A stretch of 37,307 nt of DNA from a virus. The notes below the pieces were generated by a model. It searched no databases. It saw only the letters and a program-made list of their open reading frames with translations, and was not told the origin of the DNA. The first letter of the stretch is position 1; the number at the start of each line of letters is the position of its first letter. This document shows positions 10,064-37,307 of this stretch, piece by piece. The DNA is taken from IMG/VR virus record IMGVR_UViG_3300035670_000657, positions 1-37,307 of that record, one strand, 5' to 3'. The position numbers and the translations under genes were made by a program.

Positions 10064-11203
10064 CTAATTGTGGATGGTGACAAAGAGCCGCACACTCAAC
10101 CCCGCTAAGGCAGGTAAATTGCCAGCCGATAAAATCTGAGTTGAATTAAAAGACAGTTGGCCTAGAGCCGTATACCCCCGGATGTCATTCCATGTGCTGC
10201 CACCGCCAAACACCCAACCCGACACGTCCCAAATCACAGCAGAGCCTAGGCCATGGGTGTAAACAAGCCGTCCAGTGCCATCCAGGTTGGTTGTAAATGT
10301 GCGCTGTATCATGTAGTTAGATGCTGTTCTTACCCCCCCAGGGGCATCGAGCGTGGTCGTCACAGCCAGGCCGCCCGTTATCTGTGAATTGCCCGTCACT
10401 GCAATGCCGCCCGTGATACCAGCCCCACCGCTGGCCACCGTCAAAGGCCCATTCACATAACAATTGGAGTCGGTGATAAGACTCCCACCCACCCAACACG
10501 TCTTTCCTATGCCCACACCACCCAAGGTCACAATCGAGCCTGTTGTTTTTGAGCCGCTTTGTGTGGCCCCTTGCCAGGTCAGGATGCTAGCCGTATCACC
10601 CAATGTGGGGCTTGCCGCTACCGCCACCACGCCGCTGCTGTTTAATGTCATAAACTGGGGGCTGGCTGGCGGTGGGCTAGCTGGCAGGGTCAGCGTGTAA
10701 GAGCTAGTCGCAGCATGGGTCAATTTGATCGTGTTGCCAAAGTTCACAGACAAAATGAGATCCCGGCACCGCAAGTCAGCATACGTCCCGGCGTCATAGA
10801 AAAAAGAATATTGCTGGCCCGCAAACGTGGCACTGGCAGGAGAGGCAAGGCCCGCAATATTGCCACTAGCACCCGCTACACTGCCCCCATTTGTGATTTG
10901 CACATCGGTGAGCCCATTGGCATAAAACAAATCGCCGTTTTTGATGTAAATATCCGCAGCATCACTAGCAATCAGCGAGCTTGTTTGGCTCACAAACTTC
11001 ACTGACTTTAAATCTATTATTTTATTCTCATTGATTGTTAAGTCTGTGTTGATGCTCAGCCCACTTGGTGTCACAGGCACACCCTTGCCAGAGCTGTGGT
11101 CGTGGGCATCAATTATCGACGCATTGGCATTGAGTTCATTGGCCCAATCAGGGCCTTGTGTGCCAGGGGTTGGTTGACTGAGGCCCATATTTGTTGTTGC
11201 CAT
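10064..11203 (-). CDS. Tail fibre protein
   Basis: This 379-residue, Gly/Thr/Ser-rich, repetitive beta protein starts like many phage fibres: a short LSQPTPGTQGPDWANELNAN segment followed by IDAHDHSSGKGVPVTPSGL, a virion-attachment pattern. The middle consists of repeated short beta strands (TGSIVTLGGVGIG, VASGGAGITGGIAV) of the trimeric fibre-shaft type. The C-terminus is a compact beta domain likely to bind the receptor. The larger fibre encoded at 28-30.8 kb has similar shaft repeats, so the virion may carry two fibre types. An AAAGGG ribosome site precedes the ATG at 11203. Confidence 0.8.
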   Translation of the reverse strand: MATTNMGLSQPTPGTQGPDWANELNANASIIDAHDHSSGKGVPVTPSGLSINTDLTINENKIIDLKSVKFVSQTSSLIASDAADIYIKNGDLFYANGLTDVQITNGGSVAGASGNIAGLASPASATFAGQQYSFFYDAGTYADLRCRDLILSVNFGNTIKLTHAATSSYTLTLPASPPPASPQFMTLNSSGVVAVAASPTLGDTASILTWQGATQSGSKTTGSIVTLGGVGIGKTCWVGGSLITDSNCYVNGPLTVASGGAGITGGIAVTGNSQITGGLAVTTTLDAPGGVRTASNYMIQRTFTTNLDGTGRLVYTHGLGSAVIWDVSGWVFGGGSTWNDIRGYTALGQLSFNSTQILSAGNLPALAGLSVRLFVTIHN

Positions 11204-11223
11204 GAATTGCCCTTTAAGATGTG

Positions 11224-11251
11224 ATTTGAGTTTTTTTATCTTAGCTCAAAT
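11224..11251. other. Inverted repeat in the divergent region before the tail fibre gene
   Basis: ATTTGAG (11224-11230) and CTCAAAT (11245-11251) form a 7-bp inverted repeat around a T/A-rich 14-base loop. A tandem 9-bp duplication with the core TTATTCGGC follows at about 11255-11272. The whole gap (11204-11291) separates divergent genes and must hold any local promoters, but I see no good -35/-10 pair. The repeat could be an operator or a weak terminator. Confidence 0.35.
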
Positions 11252-11291
11252 TGGGCTTATTCGGCTTATTCGGCTTTAGATTGGAATTGCC

Positions 11292-11594
11292 ATGAAACCA
11301 AAGCGTATCCATGTCCCAGACCAGTCTCTTATGAGAGTCCAGGATGCTATAGCTGACACCATCAATAAATGGCCCGATTTTTTATACTCGGCTCAGCTCA
11401 TAGGGCCATTTAATCTTGTCACAGGGGATAACATCATTAATCACGGCCTAGACACCGTGCTACAGGGGTGGCTTGTGGTGAGGAGAAGCACAGGAGCTGT
11501 TTTATACGACAAACAGACCACAAACCGGGTGCCTAACAAAACCCTTATCGTCAATTCCTCAACTAATGTCACAATCTCTCTGATTGTTTTTTAA
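11292..11594 (+). CDS. Small beta-rich protein (hypothetical, possibly virion-related)
   Basis: This 100-residue protein is not recognised with certainty. The second half is a run of beta strands (FNLVTGDNIINHGLD, GWLVVRRSTGAVLYDKQ, TLIVNSSTNVTISLIVF). The pattern N-x-hydrophobic-x-HGL, G-W-hydrophobic-V, and a strand ending in IxVF is seen in small proteins near phage tail genes. It is the first gene of the plus-strand insertion and keeps the GC content of the structural genes. Its ribosome site is weak (TTGGAATT). It is followed 22 bp later by the ParB-like gene. It may be an accessory tail component rather than part of the modification pair. Confidence 0.55.
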   Translation: MKPKRIHVPDQSLMRVQDAIADTINKWPDFLYSAQLIGPFNLVTGDNIINHGLDTVLQGWLVVRRSTGAVLYDKQTTNRVPNKTLIVNSSTNVTISLIVF

Positions 11595-11616
11595 TCAATA
11601 TAAATAAAGGTCAAAA

Positions 11617-12525
11617 ATGAAACAAAAACTTAAACATGACATCAAATATCTGCCCGTTGACACGCTACACCCTTATAAACACAATGCCCGCACCCACAGC
11701 GGTGAACAGGTCGACAGAATAGCTAGTAGCATTCAGGAATTTGGATTCTTAAACCCCATCCTCATTGATAGCGCAAGTAAAACCATACTAGCTGGCCATG
11801 GGCGGTTATTAGCAGCTAAAAAACTAGGCCTTGAGACCGTGCCTGTGGTGGCATTTAATCACCTCACCGATGCCCAAAGGAAAGCCTATACGCTAGCTGA
11901 TAACAAACTTGCCTTAGATGCTGGCTGGGACTATGAGCTGCTAAAAATAGAACTCGATGAGCTGAAACTAGAAGACTTTGACTTGGATATGATTGGCTTT
12001 GGTGAGTTTGAAACCCAAGTGGATAGCATTTTAAACCCAGGTCACTCTAGCTTAGGCACTCCTGGCACACAAACCACACCACCCATATTTGAGCCTAACC
12101 TTCCTAAAGAATCTCCTTATACTCAAAAGACGAATCGGCCTCTTTATGAGAAGACTCGAGAAGAAAAACCGGCTTTGGAGACGTTGTATTCATTTGAGAA
12201 AACGAAAGAATTATTAGATGAAATAGAGTCTAGTGATCAAGATTTATCAATGCAAGAAAAAGAGTTTCTGAAATTAGCTGCTTATCGTCACACGGTTTTT
12301 AATTTTGAACACATCGCAGAATATTATTGTCATAGTAATAAAAAAGTACAAAAGCTTTTTGAAAACAGTGCTTTAGTGATAGTGGATTTCGATGATGGGA
12401 TAAAAAATGGTTGGATCAAATTATCGAAAACATTAGATGAGATCTATAATGAAGATTTCAAATTGAATGAATTGAAGATAGAAAAAGAAAAAACAGAGGG
12501 TTTATCAGATGACGATGAGTATTAA
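11617..12525 (+). CDS. ParB/Srx-fold protein with C-terminal domain typical of DNA-modification loci
   Basis: The product has 302 residues. Residues ~8-130 form a ParB-N/Srx-like domain: PxxTLHPYxxNARTH, then IASSIQEFGFLNPILID, and the nucleotide/phosphate-binding ILAGHGRLLAAKKLG (GHGR at 60-63), ending with AYxLADNKLAL. This version (GHGR, not GERR) is the one often found with phage DNA methylases and base-modification genes rather than with plasmid partition. Residues ~195-285 form a separate helical domain (EFLKLAAYRHTVFNFEHIAEYY, then SALVIVDFDDGIKNGWIKLS) that I associate with ParB proteins next to TAGT genes; this is from memory. No catalytic methylase motif was seen. It overlaps the glycosyltransferase gene by 17 bp. 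GC content drops sharply inside this gene after about 12180. Confidence 0.7.
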   Translation: MKQKLKHDIKYLPVDTLHPYKHNARTHSGEQVDRIASSIQEFGFLNPILIDSASKTILAGHGRLLAAKKLGLETVPVVAFNHLTDAQRKAYTLADNKLALDAGWDYELLKIELDELKLEDFDLDMIGFGEFETQVDSILNPGHSSLGTPGTQTTPPIFEPNLPKESPYTQKTNRPLYEKTREEKPALETLYSFEKTKELLDEIESSDQDLSMQEKEFLKLAAYRHTVFNFEHIAEYYCHSNKKVQKLFENSALVIVDFDDGIKNGWIKLSKTLDEIYNEDFKLNELKIEKEKTEGLSDDDEY

Positions 12526-13378
12526 AAATTTTGCTGTTTTTATTTTAACGCATGGCCGAGCTTCTAACGTCATCACTTATCAGACTTTGAGAAGACAAGG
12601 TTATACAGGCCTTATTTATCTTTTGGTTGATGATGAAGATAAACAGATAGACGATTATAGGAAGCTTTATGGAAAACAAGTCATTGTTTTTAATAAACAG
12701 AAAGCGATAGATTTCACAGATAGCGGCGATAACTTTCTCAAACGGAATAGCGTTGTTTATGCCCGTAACTATAATTTTGTTATAGCGAAAGAGTTAGGGG
12801 TTGATTATTTTTTACAATTGGATGACGATTATACGTATTTCACACATACTTATGATAATGAAAGAAATTATATAACTTCTAAAAATCGTATAAATTCTTT
12901 AGACAAAGTTTTTAATGCAATGACATTGTTTTTAATTGAGACACAAGCTCATAGTGTAGCGATGAGCCAAGGTGGTGATTTTATTGGTGGTATAGGAACA
13001 GTCGGAAAGAATTATATTTTATATAACCGGTTTTCCCGTAAAGTCATGAATGCCTTTTTTATGAACACTAAAAAACCATTTAAATTTATGGGTCGAATCA
13101 ATGAAGATGTGAATGCTTATGTGAGTTTAGGCAGCACTGGCCATTTGTTTATCACAGTGCCAAGAGTGCGGTTAGAACAACGTGTGACGCAAACCAACCC
13201 CGGCGGTCTGACAGACATCTATAAAGATTTAGGCACTTATGTGAAATCTTTTTATTCTGTGCTTTATTCCCCAAATACAGTTCTTATCACAATGATGGGT
13301 GTTATAAATCCCCGTCTGCATCACAGTGTGAAATGGTCAACTGCTGTTCCAAAGATAATTGATTCAAATTCTCTATAG
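12509..13378 (+). CDS. TET-associated-type glycosyltransferase (TAGT-like), candidate DNA base hypermodification enzyme
   Basis: The product has 289 residues with a GT-A-like N-terminal half: HGRASN (15-20), a Rossmann strand and VDDED (40-44), LYGKQVIVFNK, YARNYNFVIAKELGVDYF and the metal-binding LDDDY (104-108). This order (GR-x-N, VDDxD, F-x-K, ARN, LDDDY) matches the TAGT family described by Iyer and Aravind. In phages that family adds sugars to oxidised 5-methylcytosine. The C-terminal half includes GGDFIGGIGTVGKN and GRINEDVNAYV, as expected for substrate binding. The ribosome site GAGGG lies within the end of the ParB-like gene. The DNA is very AT-rich (20% GC at 12841-12900), unlike the flanking structural genes. 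No TET dioxygenase or C5-methyltransferase gene was recognised elsewhere, so the acceptor base is unknown. Confidence 0.75.
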   Translation: MTMSIKNFAVFILTHGRASNVITYQTLRRQGYTGLIYLLVDDEDKQIDDYRKLYGKQVIVFNKQKAIDFTDSGDNFLKRNSVVYARNYNFVIAKELGVDYFLQLDDDYTYFTHTYDNERNYITSKNRINSLDKVFNAMTLFLIETQAHSVAMSQGGDFIGGIGTVGKNYILYNRFSRKVMNAFFMNTKKPFKFMGRINEDVNAYVSLGSTGHLFITVPRVRLEQRVTQTNPGGLTDIYKDLGTYVKSFYSVLYSPNTVLITMMGVINPRLHHSVKWSTAVPKIIDSNSL

Positions 13379-13383
13379 TAGTT

Positions 13384-13416
13384 CACCACAATCACACCAC
13401 AATCACACCACAATCA
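13384..13416. repeat. Three tandem 11-bp repeats between convergent genes
   Basis: CACCACAATCA occurs three times in perfect tandem. The array fills the gap between the glycosyltransferase stop and the connector gene, and the last TCA is the connector stop codon on the opposite strand. It marks the right-hand boundary of the plus-strand insertion and could be a recombination scar. No stem-loop was seen. Confidence 0.8.
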
Positions 13417-14085
13417 CAATAAAAATGTGGGCAAATAAAGATTGTCGTTGATGGTGTCCACGTCAACAACCACCTTGGGAAAGCTGGAATCCTGGTCAGC
13501 CACCATGGTCTGCACCCGCACCCTTTGGGCTGCTAACTCTTGGGCCAAAAGGGTGGTGTCAGACTCCTCTTTAGCTAACATCTTCAAGGCCACAAACAAA
13601 ATCAAAAACTCGTCAAACCCAAGCGTGTCCACATCTGTGGTGGTGAGTGCTGGCACTACGGCAAGAGGTGTGTAGTACAGCTTAAGCTGGCCTGCTCCTG
13701 GGATAGGGGTAAAGCGGATCTTGTCGCCTAGCAGTGTGTAGCGGTAAACAGGGCCGGCAATGGTGGTCAGCCCAGCATACTTATACCGATTGCGCTCAAG
13801 GAATTGAAAGGGCCGCAAGGTGATTGGGCTGCCCACGTTGTTAATCAAATCCACACCCAAGAGCTTGTAAAAATCAGTGGGTAGCAAGTAGTCCTGCTGG
13901 CCATTCACAAGAGTGATGTCGAATGTGGACAGGTAGTACTGGTTATTGGATTGGACAAGCTCATCATAAAAATTTTGATAAGCCAGTTTGAGATAACCTA
14001 GAGCCTCAGCGTCAGAGACAAACTGAGAACCCACTTGGTCGGCACGCTGGCGGGCTTGTTCTATGAGAGAAGATGCATGAGTCAT
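13414..14085 (-). CDS. Head-tail connector / adaptor protein (tail tubular protein A-like)
   Basis: The product has 223 residues. A helical N-terminus (ASSLIEQARQRADQ, then DAEALGYLKLAYQNFYDELVQ) is followed by a beta core (YYLSTFDITLVNGQQDYLLPTDFYKLLGVD, GDKIRFTPIP, LKLYYTPLA) and a C-terminal helix (LILFVALKMLAKEESD). This helix, beta barrel, helix layout with YxLPxDFYKLxGVD is typical of the ring protein that sits between portal and nozzle in short-tailed phages. It lies between the capsid genes and the fibre/nozzle genes, which supports the call. The AAAGG ribosome site is good. Which named family it belongs to (T7 gp11-like or P22 gp4-like) is not decided here. Confidence 0.75.
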   Translation of the reverse strand: MTHASSLIEQARQRADQVGSQFVSDAEALGYLKLAYQNFYDELVQSNNQYYLSTFDITLVNGQQDYLLPTDFYKLLGVDLINNVGSPITLRPFQFLERNRYKYAGLTTIAGPVYRYTLLGDKIRFTPIPGAGQLKLYYTPLAVVPALTTTDVDTLGFDEFLILFVALKMLAKEESDTTLLAQELAAQRVRVQTMVADQDSSFPKVVVDVDTINDNLYLPTFLL

Positions 14086-22296: not shown

Positions 22297-22361
22297 TTGT
22301 GGATCCATTATGCTTTCATTGTGGATCCATTATGCTTTCATTATGCTTTCATTGTGGATCC
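22297..22361. repeat. Three TTGTGGATCC direct repeats spaced by 22 and 33 bp
   Basis: TTGTGGATCC starts at 22297, 22319 and 22352. The first two are parts of a perfect 22-bp repeat that continues with ATTATGCTTTCA, and an extra 11-bp copy of that continuation separates the second and third. Spacings are whole multiples of 11 bp, so all three sites face the same side of the DNA helix, as in iterons or cooperative operators. Confidence 0.85.
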
Positions 22362-22423
22362 AAATTCTCAGAATGTTGATATCATTGGGGATGAAATCAC
22401 TTTAAAAGACTTATTCACTAAAA

Positions 22424-26571: not shown

Positions 26572-27186
26572 TCAAAGGCCCCAATCTACCTTGAGAATCT
26601 TGGGGTCTAGTTTCCTCAGCCAGTCCACGATATCCCTCATATCTTTTTCTCCAATCACCCCCACACAGCCCGCTGTGCCCGGTGCCGTGGAGCGGTTGTA
26701 GTCCATGTGTATGCCAAATTCCCCACGCCGTTTTTCCTCAGCGCACACGATGGGGATAAACACAGGCCCTAAACCTGCACCATGACTGGCTTTCCAATTG
26801 TCTTTACCGCCAGCCCAGGAGATATCCCACACGGCGTAGGTGCCTTGAGGACAGGGCTCCATGCTGCCAGGCATGTTGCGACCAGCCTTGCGGAAGTGTT
26901 GGGCATAGCCTTGGCCCGTACACACTATCCACTCCCGTACTTCCTTTCCGCCCTCATCAAATAACTCTAGCTTGCACTTGAATGTCCCATCGGCAAACTT
27001 TTCGCTAGTTTTAGAGAGCCTCAGATAGCTATCACCCATACAAAACCCCTTGCCTTCGGCTTGTGTGTATAGACCTTTTAGAAATAAAAAACACATTCTG
27101 ATTATAAAATAAATGATAAAAAGAATGCGCTTTTGTATAGAATCTATTTCAATAAGTGTGTCATAAATGTATTGGCGGTAAGACAT
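26572..27186 (-). CDS. YkuD-like peptidoglycan-active enzyme, possibly membrane-anchored lysis protein
   Basis: The product has 204 residues from the ATG at 27186. The catalytic C-terminal half contains GIHMDYNRSTAPGTAGCVGV (His160, Cys174), matching the His...Gly-Cys signature of YkuD-like L,D-transpeptidases and related peptidoglycan enzymes, though the His-Cys spacing and the 'GTAGC' form differ from the classical motif. The N-terminus (IQKRILFIIYFIIRMCFLFLKGL, 18-40) is a hydrophobic, possibly signal-anchor segment. A second start at 27039 (AAGGGG before the ATG) would give a 155-residue cytosolic form. Both have good ribosome sites, and that of the long form is inside a hairpin. As this genome has no other lysin candidate, this enzyme is the best endolysin guess. 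Confidence 0.6.
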   Translation of the reverse strand: MSYRQYIYDTLIEIDSIQKRILFIIYFIIRMCFLFLKGLYTQAEGKGFCMGDSYLRLSKTSEKFADGTFKCKLELFDEGGKEVREWIVCTGQGYAQHFRKAGRNMPGSMEPCPQGTYAVWDISWAGGKDNWKASHGAGLGPVFIPIVCAEEKRRGEFGIHMDYNRSTAPGTAGCVGVIGEKDMRDIVDWLRKLDPKILKVDWGL

Positions 27187-27193
27187 GGGCACC

Positions 27194-37180: not shown

Positions 37181-37307
37181 AAGGAAGACAGAAGGCAGGG
37201 TCTAGGAAAGGGAAAACAGTTTTACAAAGTTGAACCCCTGTTCGGTCAGCTCATACTCTAGAGTATCATTTGTGTCTTTTACATAGCCATATTGTTGCAG
37301 TCTCTTT
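37181..37307. repeat. Terminal direct repeat, copy 2 (same as bases 1-127)
   Basis: Exact copy of the first 127 bases, including the C-terminal part of the small wHTH gene. It should be removed when the genome is circularised, leaving 37,180 bp. It is not an extra gene copy. Confidence 0.9.

Follow-up and report, generated by a model that had tools for sequence, protein, structure and literature searches.

A widespread ParB-C/TAGT gene pair as a candidate self-contained glycosylation cassette of phages

Glycosylation of phage DNA has so far been understood as the last step of a pathway acting on a base hydroxylated beforehand, and the known DNA glycosyltransferases require a hydroxyl group made in advance. 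Those characterised all act on hydroxylated pyrimidines (PMC13216743, PMC13390438). For phage T6, the TAGT is believed to attach a second glucose to glucosyl-hydroxymethylcytosine (PMC13390438, PMC13216743), and TAGTs without an α- or β-glucosyltransferase, found in 288 of 753 phage genomes, have been flagged as potential novel transferases (PMC13216743).

Here, we describe a TAGT gene that overlaps the gene of a partner protein, designated ParB-C, in a stretch of viral DNA of 37.3 kb (the window, by which the whole stretch is meant), together with its relatives in phages, viral contigs and bacterial genomes. An earlier sequence-only reading of the window had considered the presence of the pair without enzymes for base hydroxylation the best candidate for a new hypermodification arrangement, and had offered three explanations: a modified base supplied by the host, oxidation by an unrecognised gene, or a different acceptor.

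The gene pair and its distribution

The window carries an exact 127-bp direct repeat (1-127 and 37181-37307) and therefore represents a complete circle or a terminally redundant genome. Its head genes (MCP, portal and adaptor) are SU10-like. A terminase-based search of viral contigs for relatives of the window found none; one genome-wide relative, G002, has about 30 genes in common with it. In both, the pair is flanked by tail-fibre-type genes on one side and the adaptor gene on the other, away from the terminase, and in the window it lies on the strand opposite to that of its neighbours, like a moron-like separate transcription unit. Elsewhere in the window, 22-bp repeats (TTGTGGATCCATTATGCTTTCA, 22297-22362) are located upstream of rightward replication genes and near a primase-like gene, where they are a possible origin or regulatory site, and an L,D-transpeptidase gene (YkuD, 1e-6; 26572-27192) perhaps belongs to a lysis or entry module. 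The overlap of a ParB-like gene with a TAGT gene, reported in the sequence-only reading, is borne out by two ORFs on the same strand:

11292..11594, + strand: 100-aa ORF directly 5' of ParB-C, kept only in G002
11617..12525, + strand: ParB-C (putative adaptor) gene, 302 aa, with a ParB_N domain (1e-8) plus a conserved C-terminal helical domain; phrog_620, 4e-60
11638..11904, + strand: ParB_N domain, residues 8-96 of ParB-C
12106..12480, + strand: C-terminal partner domain (C-domain), residues ~164-288 of ParB-C, helical, from partner alignments; no Pfam family above cut-off
12509..12525, + strand: 17-nt overlap of ParB-C and TAGT; an overlap of the two genes recurs in nearly all relatives
12509..13378, + strand: TAGT glycosyltransferase gene, 289 aa, GT-A/GT2-like; PF20691, 9e-35; phrog_842, 2e-66

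The overlap probably serves translational coupling. The 100-aa ORF is regarded as lineage-specific context outside the cassette because of its conservation in G002 only. Just 3' of the TAGT stop codon (13384-13418) lies a perfect 11-bp tandem array (CACCACAATCA, 3.2 copies); it is above chance in the window but missing behind the G002 pair, and was dropped as a candidate ParB target.

All TAGT motifs recognised earlier are present, namely THGRASN (residues 14-20), VDDED (40-44), YARN (84-87) and LDDDY (104-108). A Pfam profile search of the window ORFs, as suggested in the earlier reading, confirmed the TAGT at 120.8 bits for PF20691 (cut-off 27.5) and gave no C5-methyltransferase or TET match, the TET model being one without a positive control; tested members of the TAGT clade score 99-184 bits. 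Structure prediction, suggested likewise for both proteins, gave a ParB-like N-terminal part of ParB-C and, for the TAGT, a GT-A fold close to GT2 that matches GT-A/GT2 structures with E-values down to 4e-6 (pTM 0.74, moderate confidence) and has no evident membrane segments. D105-D107 and D200 are found in 38 of 38 TAGT sequences and E199 in 37 (E to D in one), and both the DDD (105-107) and the ED (199-200) are intact in the window. For both genes a dN/dS of about 0.12 was obtained in one pair of relatives (L033/L036), which indicates purifying selection on both. In a Clostridia prophage (L120), the gene directly 3' of TAGT (10828-11976) encodes a UDP-galactopyranose mutase (1e-72), a hint at galactofuranose as the sugar donated there. 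Tandem TAGT genes follow a single ParB-C gene in an Erysipelotrichaceae contig (three, L123:5255-7922) and in a Blautia locus (two, L155), and stepwise addition of sugars is possible in these cases.

A tblastn search with TAGT matched 32 of 50,697 phage records, including phages of Escherichia, Salmonella, Lactobacillus, Vibrio, Nocardia and Haloarcula. A scan of viral contigs gave 199 loci, of which 80 were kept, and a scan of bacterial genomes gave 33, located in prophages of Bacteroidetes, Clostridia, enterobacteria, Kiritimatiellae, Spirochaetes and others. In a first set of ~87 loci, TAGT lies 3' of and overlaps a ParB-family ORF wherever the upstream sequence suffices, except in the decayed locus of phage Ld17. 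In the extended set, the partner was found by profile at no fewer than 115 of 121 TAGT loci, directly 5' of TAGT and usually overlapping it; the loci without a scored partner include a contig that starts at TAGT (L026) and two in which the partner is present in another frame (L082, L087). Judged by these searches, the pair is a widespread cassette and not peculiar to the window phage. In Lactobacillus phage Ld17 (NC_025420.1, 75-833) and in LL-Ku, relatives of c5, ParB-C has been lost and TAGT is only a partial match, which suggests that both genes of the pair are lost together.

At least 80% of the pair is held by 887 of 5,426 complete E. coli genomes (about 16%), and part of it by 1,575. The ynaK gene (b1365) of the Rac prophage in E. 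coli K-12 MG1655 (L124; NC_000913.3, 1425377-1425640) shares 85 of its first 86 residues with the N-terminus of E. coli ParB-C. A deletion of ~11.5 kb in K-12 took out the C-domain, TAGT and the terminase and joins ynaK to ydaY and a tape-measure remnant. As read from these sequences, ynaK is a truncated remnant of a ParB-C gene and not a functional pair.

The partner protein and its genomic context

ParB-C matches PF02195 (ParB_N) in Pfam and, in PHROGs, phrog_498 (9e-51) besides phrog_620. Its AlphaFold model (pLDDT 79) resembles ParB, Noc, sulfiredoxin and SerK structures in the N-terminal part, and the C-domain is modelled as helical with pLDDT values exceeding 90 for a large part of the domain. 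When the partner proteins are aligned, conservation is higher in the ~105 C-terminal residues than in ParB_N, and these residues have the consensus PxYEPTGxKP...LYDD...FLxxAAxRHxVFNFExIAxYYAHA...QxLMExSALVIIDFDKAIxNGYV. ParB_N has diverged past recognition in L072, L073 and Porphyromonas phage005a and is absent in L086, L095, L107 and L111, so it is not essential. The invariant part of the partner, as far as these alignments go, is the C-terminal helical domain rather than the ParB domain. The description of the partner as ParB-like in the sequence-only reading holds for its N-terminal domain, but this is a dispensable fusion, and the separate conserved domain had been overlooked.

The C-domain is strictly tied to TAGT. 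A search of the 50,697 phage records found it in 28 at significant E-values, all within the 32 records of the TAGT clade; the other four are the Ld17 and LL-Ku entries, in which the TAGT matches are incomplete. Across about 1,194 bacterial genomes of three phyla, the C-domain profile gave three strong matches, each adjoining TAGT, in genomes that were already known centres of the search. A marginal match (L156) is a GntR-like regulator and was discarded as a chance hit. The literature searched, a scope outside which the TAGT-defining study lies, yielded no description of the C-domain or of a self-contained pair.

Of 47 non-redundant loci with 4 kb of downstream sequence, 39 have a TerL gene starting within this distance downstream on the same strand, and in none of 43 loci is TerL located upstream of the pair. 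On this evidence the usual site of the cassette is the head of the terminase operon, to which the window is an exception. The same position is occupied by ParB-DNA methylase fusions in P8625, pOW20-A and Funu2, and the ParB_N of the cassette is up to 64% identical to ParB_N domains fused to phage DNA methylases. Four ParB-less pairs sit among replication genes: a pol III β clamp gene lies upstream in L111 (4e-7), a weak clamp match accompanies the pair in L107, where a uracil-DNA glycosylase gene follows downstream, primase-helicase and helicase genes flank it in L095, and in Vibrio phage Va1 a helicase gene is directly 3' of the pair, with clamp, SSB and primase genes upstream. The α-glucosyltransferase of phage T4 binds the T4 clamp (PMC13216743). 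Taken together, the genomic context points to DNA as the target. Directly 3' of the ParB-less C-domain/TAGT pair of L111, a cytidylyltransferase-like gene was observed (L111:10864-11307).

The acceptor of the sugar

The absence of a hydroxylating pathway from the window, stated in the sequence-only reading, stood up to a Pfam hmmscan of 40 ORFs (E<0.1), which found no TET, C5-methyltransferase, thymidylate-synthase-type hydroxymethylase or α-/β-glucosyltransferase, and to six-frame searches, in which PF12851, PF00145 and PF00303 were not detected. It is, however, not a peculiarity of the window phage, as had been supposed, since a pair without these enzymes is the rule in the TAGT clade (36 records). 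None of the 36 records including the window has a C5-methyltransferase match, whereas 10 of 14 control genomes were positive. PF00303 is absent from the window and from 34 of the 35 other records. The sole match, in the T4-like Vibrio phage Va1, is an ordinary thymidylate synthase with the GVPFN motif encoded beside DHFR, and Va1, which has a standalone C-domain, was ruled out as a hydroxymethylase-linked case. The Pfam TET model had no match in the 36 viral and phage records, the window included, but matched nothing in the controls either; in 24 host genomes and 397 genomes of one phylum, it gave no match and again no positive control. For this reason, the absence of TET rests also on a comparison of shared genes.

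In this comparison, 14 genomes representing at least seven unrelated lineages (HHTV-2, c5, jlb1, NTR1, Porphyromonas phage005a, E. coli 666R9, the window and seven contigs) were compared all against all, using the first 50 kb of HHTV-2 and NTR1 and 37 of the 38.7 kb of 666R9. ParB-C and TAGT are the only families that all 14 share; TerL follows with 10, and any other family reaching five genomes or more is either an antisense shadow of TAGT or limited to a few related contigs. This is evidence against a shared unrecognised oxidase, which would have to escape sequence comparison at an E-value of 1e-4; the test addresses an oxidase common to all, not different ones in different phages. Oxidation by an unrecognised gene, proposed earlier, is thus unsupported as a common mechanism. 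Individual phages may still have modifying enzymes specific to their lineage; Porphyromonas phage005a, for example, encodes methyltransferases.

We propose, with a probability of roughly 0.5, that the two genes form a mobile, self-contained cassette for the glycosylation of phage DNA. The C-domain of ParB-C would hold TAGT as its obligate partner, and the ParB-type domain, where present, would bring the complex to phage DNA, as for phage DNA methylases. TAGT would then move a sugar from a host nucleotide-sugar onto the DNA, in most lineages around packaging, and the glycosylated DNA would be protected against host nucleases. Complex formation, DNA as substrate and the anti-restriction role are what we infer from domain content and gene order. 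As the cassette includes no hydroxylase, methyltransferase or hydroxymethylase, the acceptor should be either a group that ordinary DNA already has or a modification that very different hosts share. The narrower proposal that TAGT and its C-domain partner, as two proteins alone, glycosylate a canonical base or another group of unhydroxylated phage DNA is tentative and regarded as possible rather than probable. Among the three explanations given earlier, the different acceptor, be it another base or a protein, is the one left.

A protein acceptor is the most serious rival, although on balance we consider it unlikely. The pair might glycosylate a protein of the virion, of the packaging machinery or of the host, or ParB-C itself, with the C-domain as dedicated acceptor. 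Enzymes of the GT2-like GT-A type usually have sugars, lipids or proteins as substrates, the specificity of the partner domain for TAGT is strict, no DNA hydroxylase is present, and the cassette is found in late or structural operons and, in the case of the window, next to tail and adaptor genes. However, the terminases next to the cassette are of different families (TerL clusters in only 10 of 14 genomes) and some pairs lie in replication modules, so that, the partner apart, a phage protein that could serve as common target is not evident, and the ParB domain of the cassette is of the type fused to DNA methylases.

Clearly less probable as acceptor is a modified base made by the host, or made in each phage by an enzyme of its own, along the lines of the TET-TAGT and T-even pathways. 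It would agree with the activity of all characterised DNA glycosyltransferases on hydroxylated pyrimidines (PMC13216743, PMC13390438); many phage genes are unassigned, and the TET model never gave a positive control. Against it stand the lack of a third family common to the 14 genomes, the lack of C5-methyltransferases in 36 records with positive controls and the ordinary nature of the single thymidylate synthase. The host-supplied variant is further weakened by the range of hosts, which extends over Haloarcula, Lactobacillus, Nocardia, E. coli and Porphyromonas; we know of no hydroxylated DNA base common to haloarchaea, Lactobacillus and E. coli. A prophage-borne defence or exclusion pair, acting on the DNA of other phages or on cell-surface glycans and not on its own genome, would suit the frequency in E. 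coli prophages and the moron-like, oppositely oriented transcription unit of the window, but is very improbable in view of its presence in lytic-type phages (Vibrio Va1, HHTV-2, c5), its usual site in the packaging operon rather than among lysogenic-conversion genes, and the TAGT model without evident membrane segments.

The cassette would supply the last step of DNA glycosylation but not the first, and it occurs both in phages whose hosts range from haloarchaea to Lactobacillus and in ~16% of complete E. coli genomes. If DNA is the substrate, a very common and unread modification would be involved, and which acceptor a TAGT uses without a maker of hydroxymethylcytosine is answerable in an ordinary laboratory host. 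The analysis also names a previously unclassified partner domain and explains the orphan K-12 gene ynaK.

Comparison with known systems

The TAGTs of TET-type phages and those of the window clade are both members of PF20691, but the latter are without a C5-methyltransferase or TET match and have the exclusive ParB-C partner instead. The β-glucosyl-HMC-α-glucosyltransferase of T6 (ggt), a GT-A enzyme, also belongs to PF20691 (35.8 bits), but it gave no significant hhalign match to the window clade, from which it is very distant, so that its activity on DNA is not directly transferable. Unlike the window clade, ggt adjoins dCMP hydroxymethylase, and no C-domain partner was found in the T6 stretch searched. 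From the T-even pathway of hydroxymethylcytosine glucosylation, the window differs in having no Pfam match to dCMP hydroxymethylase or to α-/β-glucosyltransferase. In the PDB, the structure that the TAGT model matches best is AvpGT (9jn3; E-value 4e-6, TM only ~0.4, with many GT2 structures nearly equal), a nucleoside 3'-O-glucosyltransferase acting on free nucleosides (PMC11959488); as a pointer to DNA 3' ends, this match between a predicted model and AvpGT is a lead only.

With the ParB/Spo0J partition CTPases, ParB-C has the ParB_N domain and a fold match in common. It differs at the two CTP-hydrolysis residues Q52 and E93 of Myxococcus xanthus ParB, which are replaced by Ala24 and His61 in the phmmer alignment, making classical CTPase switching unlikely; likewise, no ParA family was found in the Pfam scan of the window. 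The closest relationship of the N-terminal domain is to the ParB-DNA methyltransferase fusions (phrog_498), which share the ParB_N subfamily and often lie just upstream of the terminase. They carry the DNA methylase in the same chain, and their match to ParB-C (residues 4-161) ends before the C-domain. Interchangeable enzymes, either a methylase or a glycosyltransferase, behind one kind of ParB module are suggested by this comparison.
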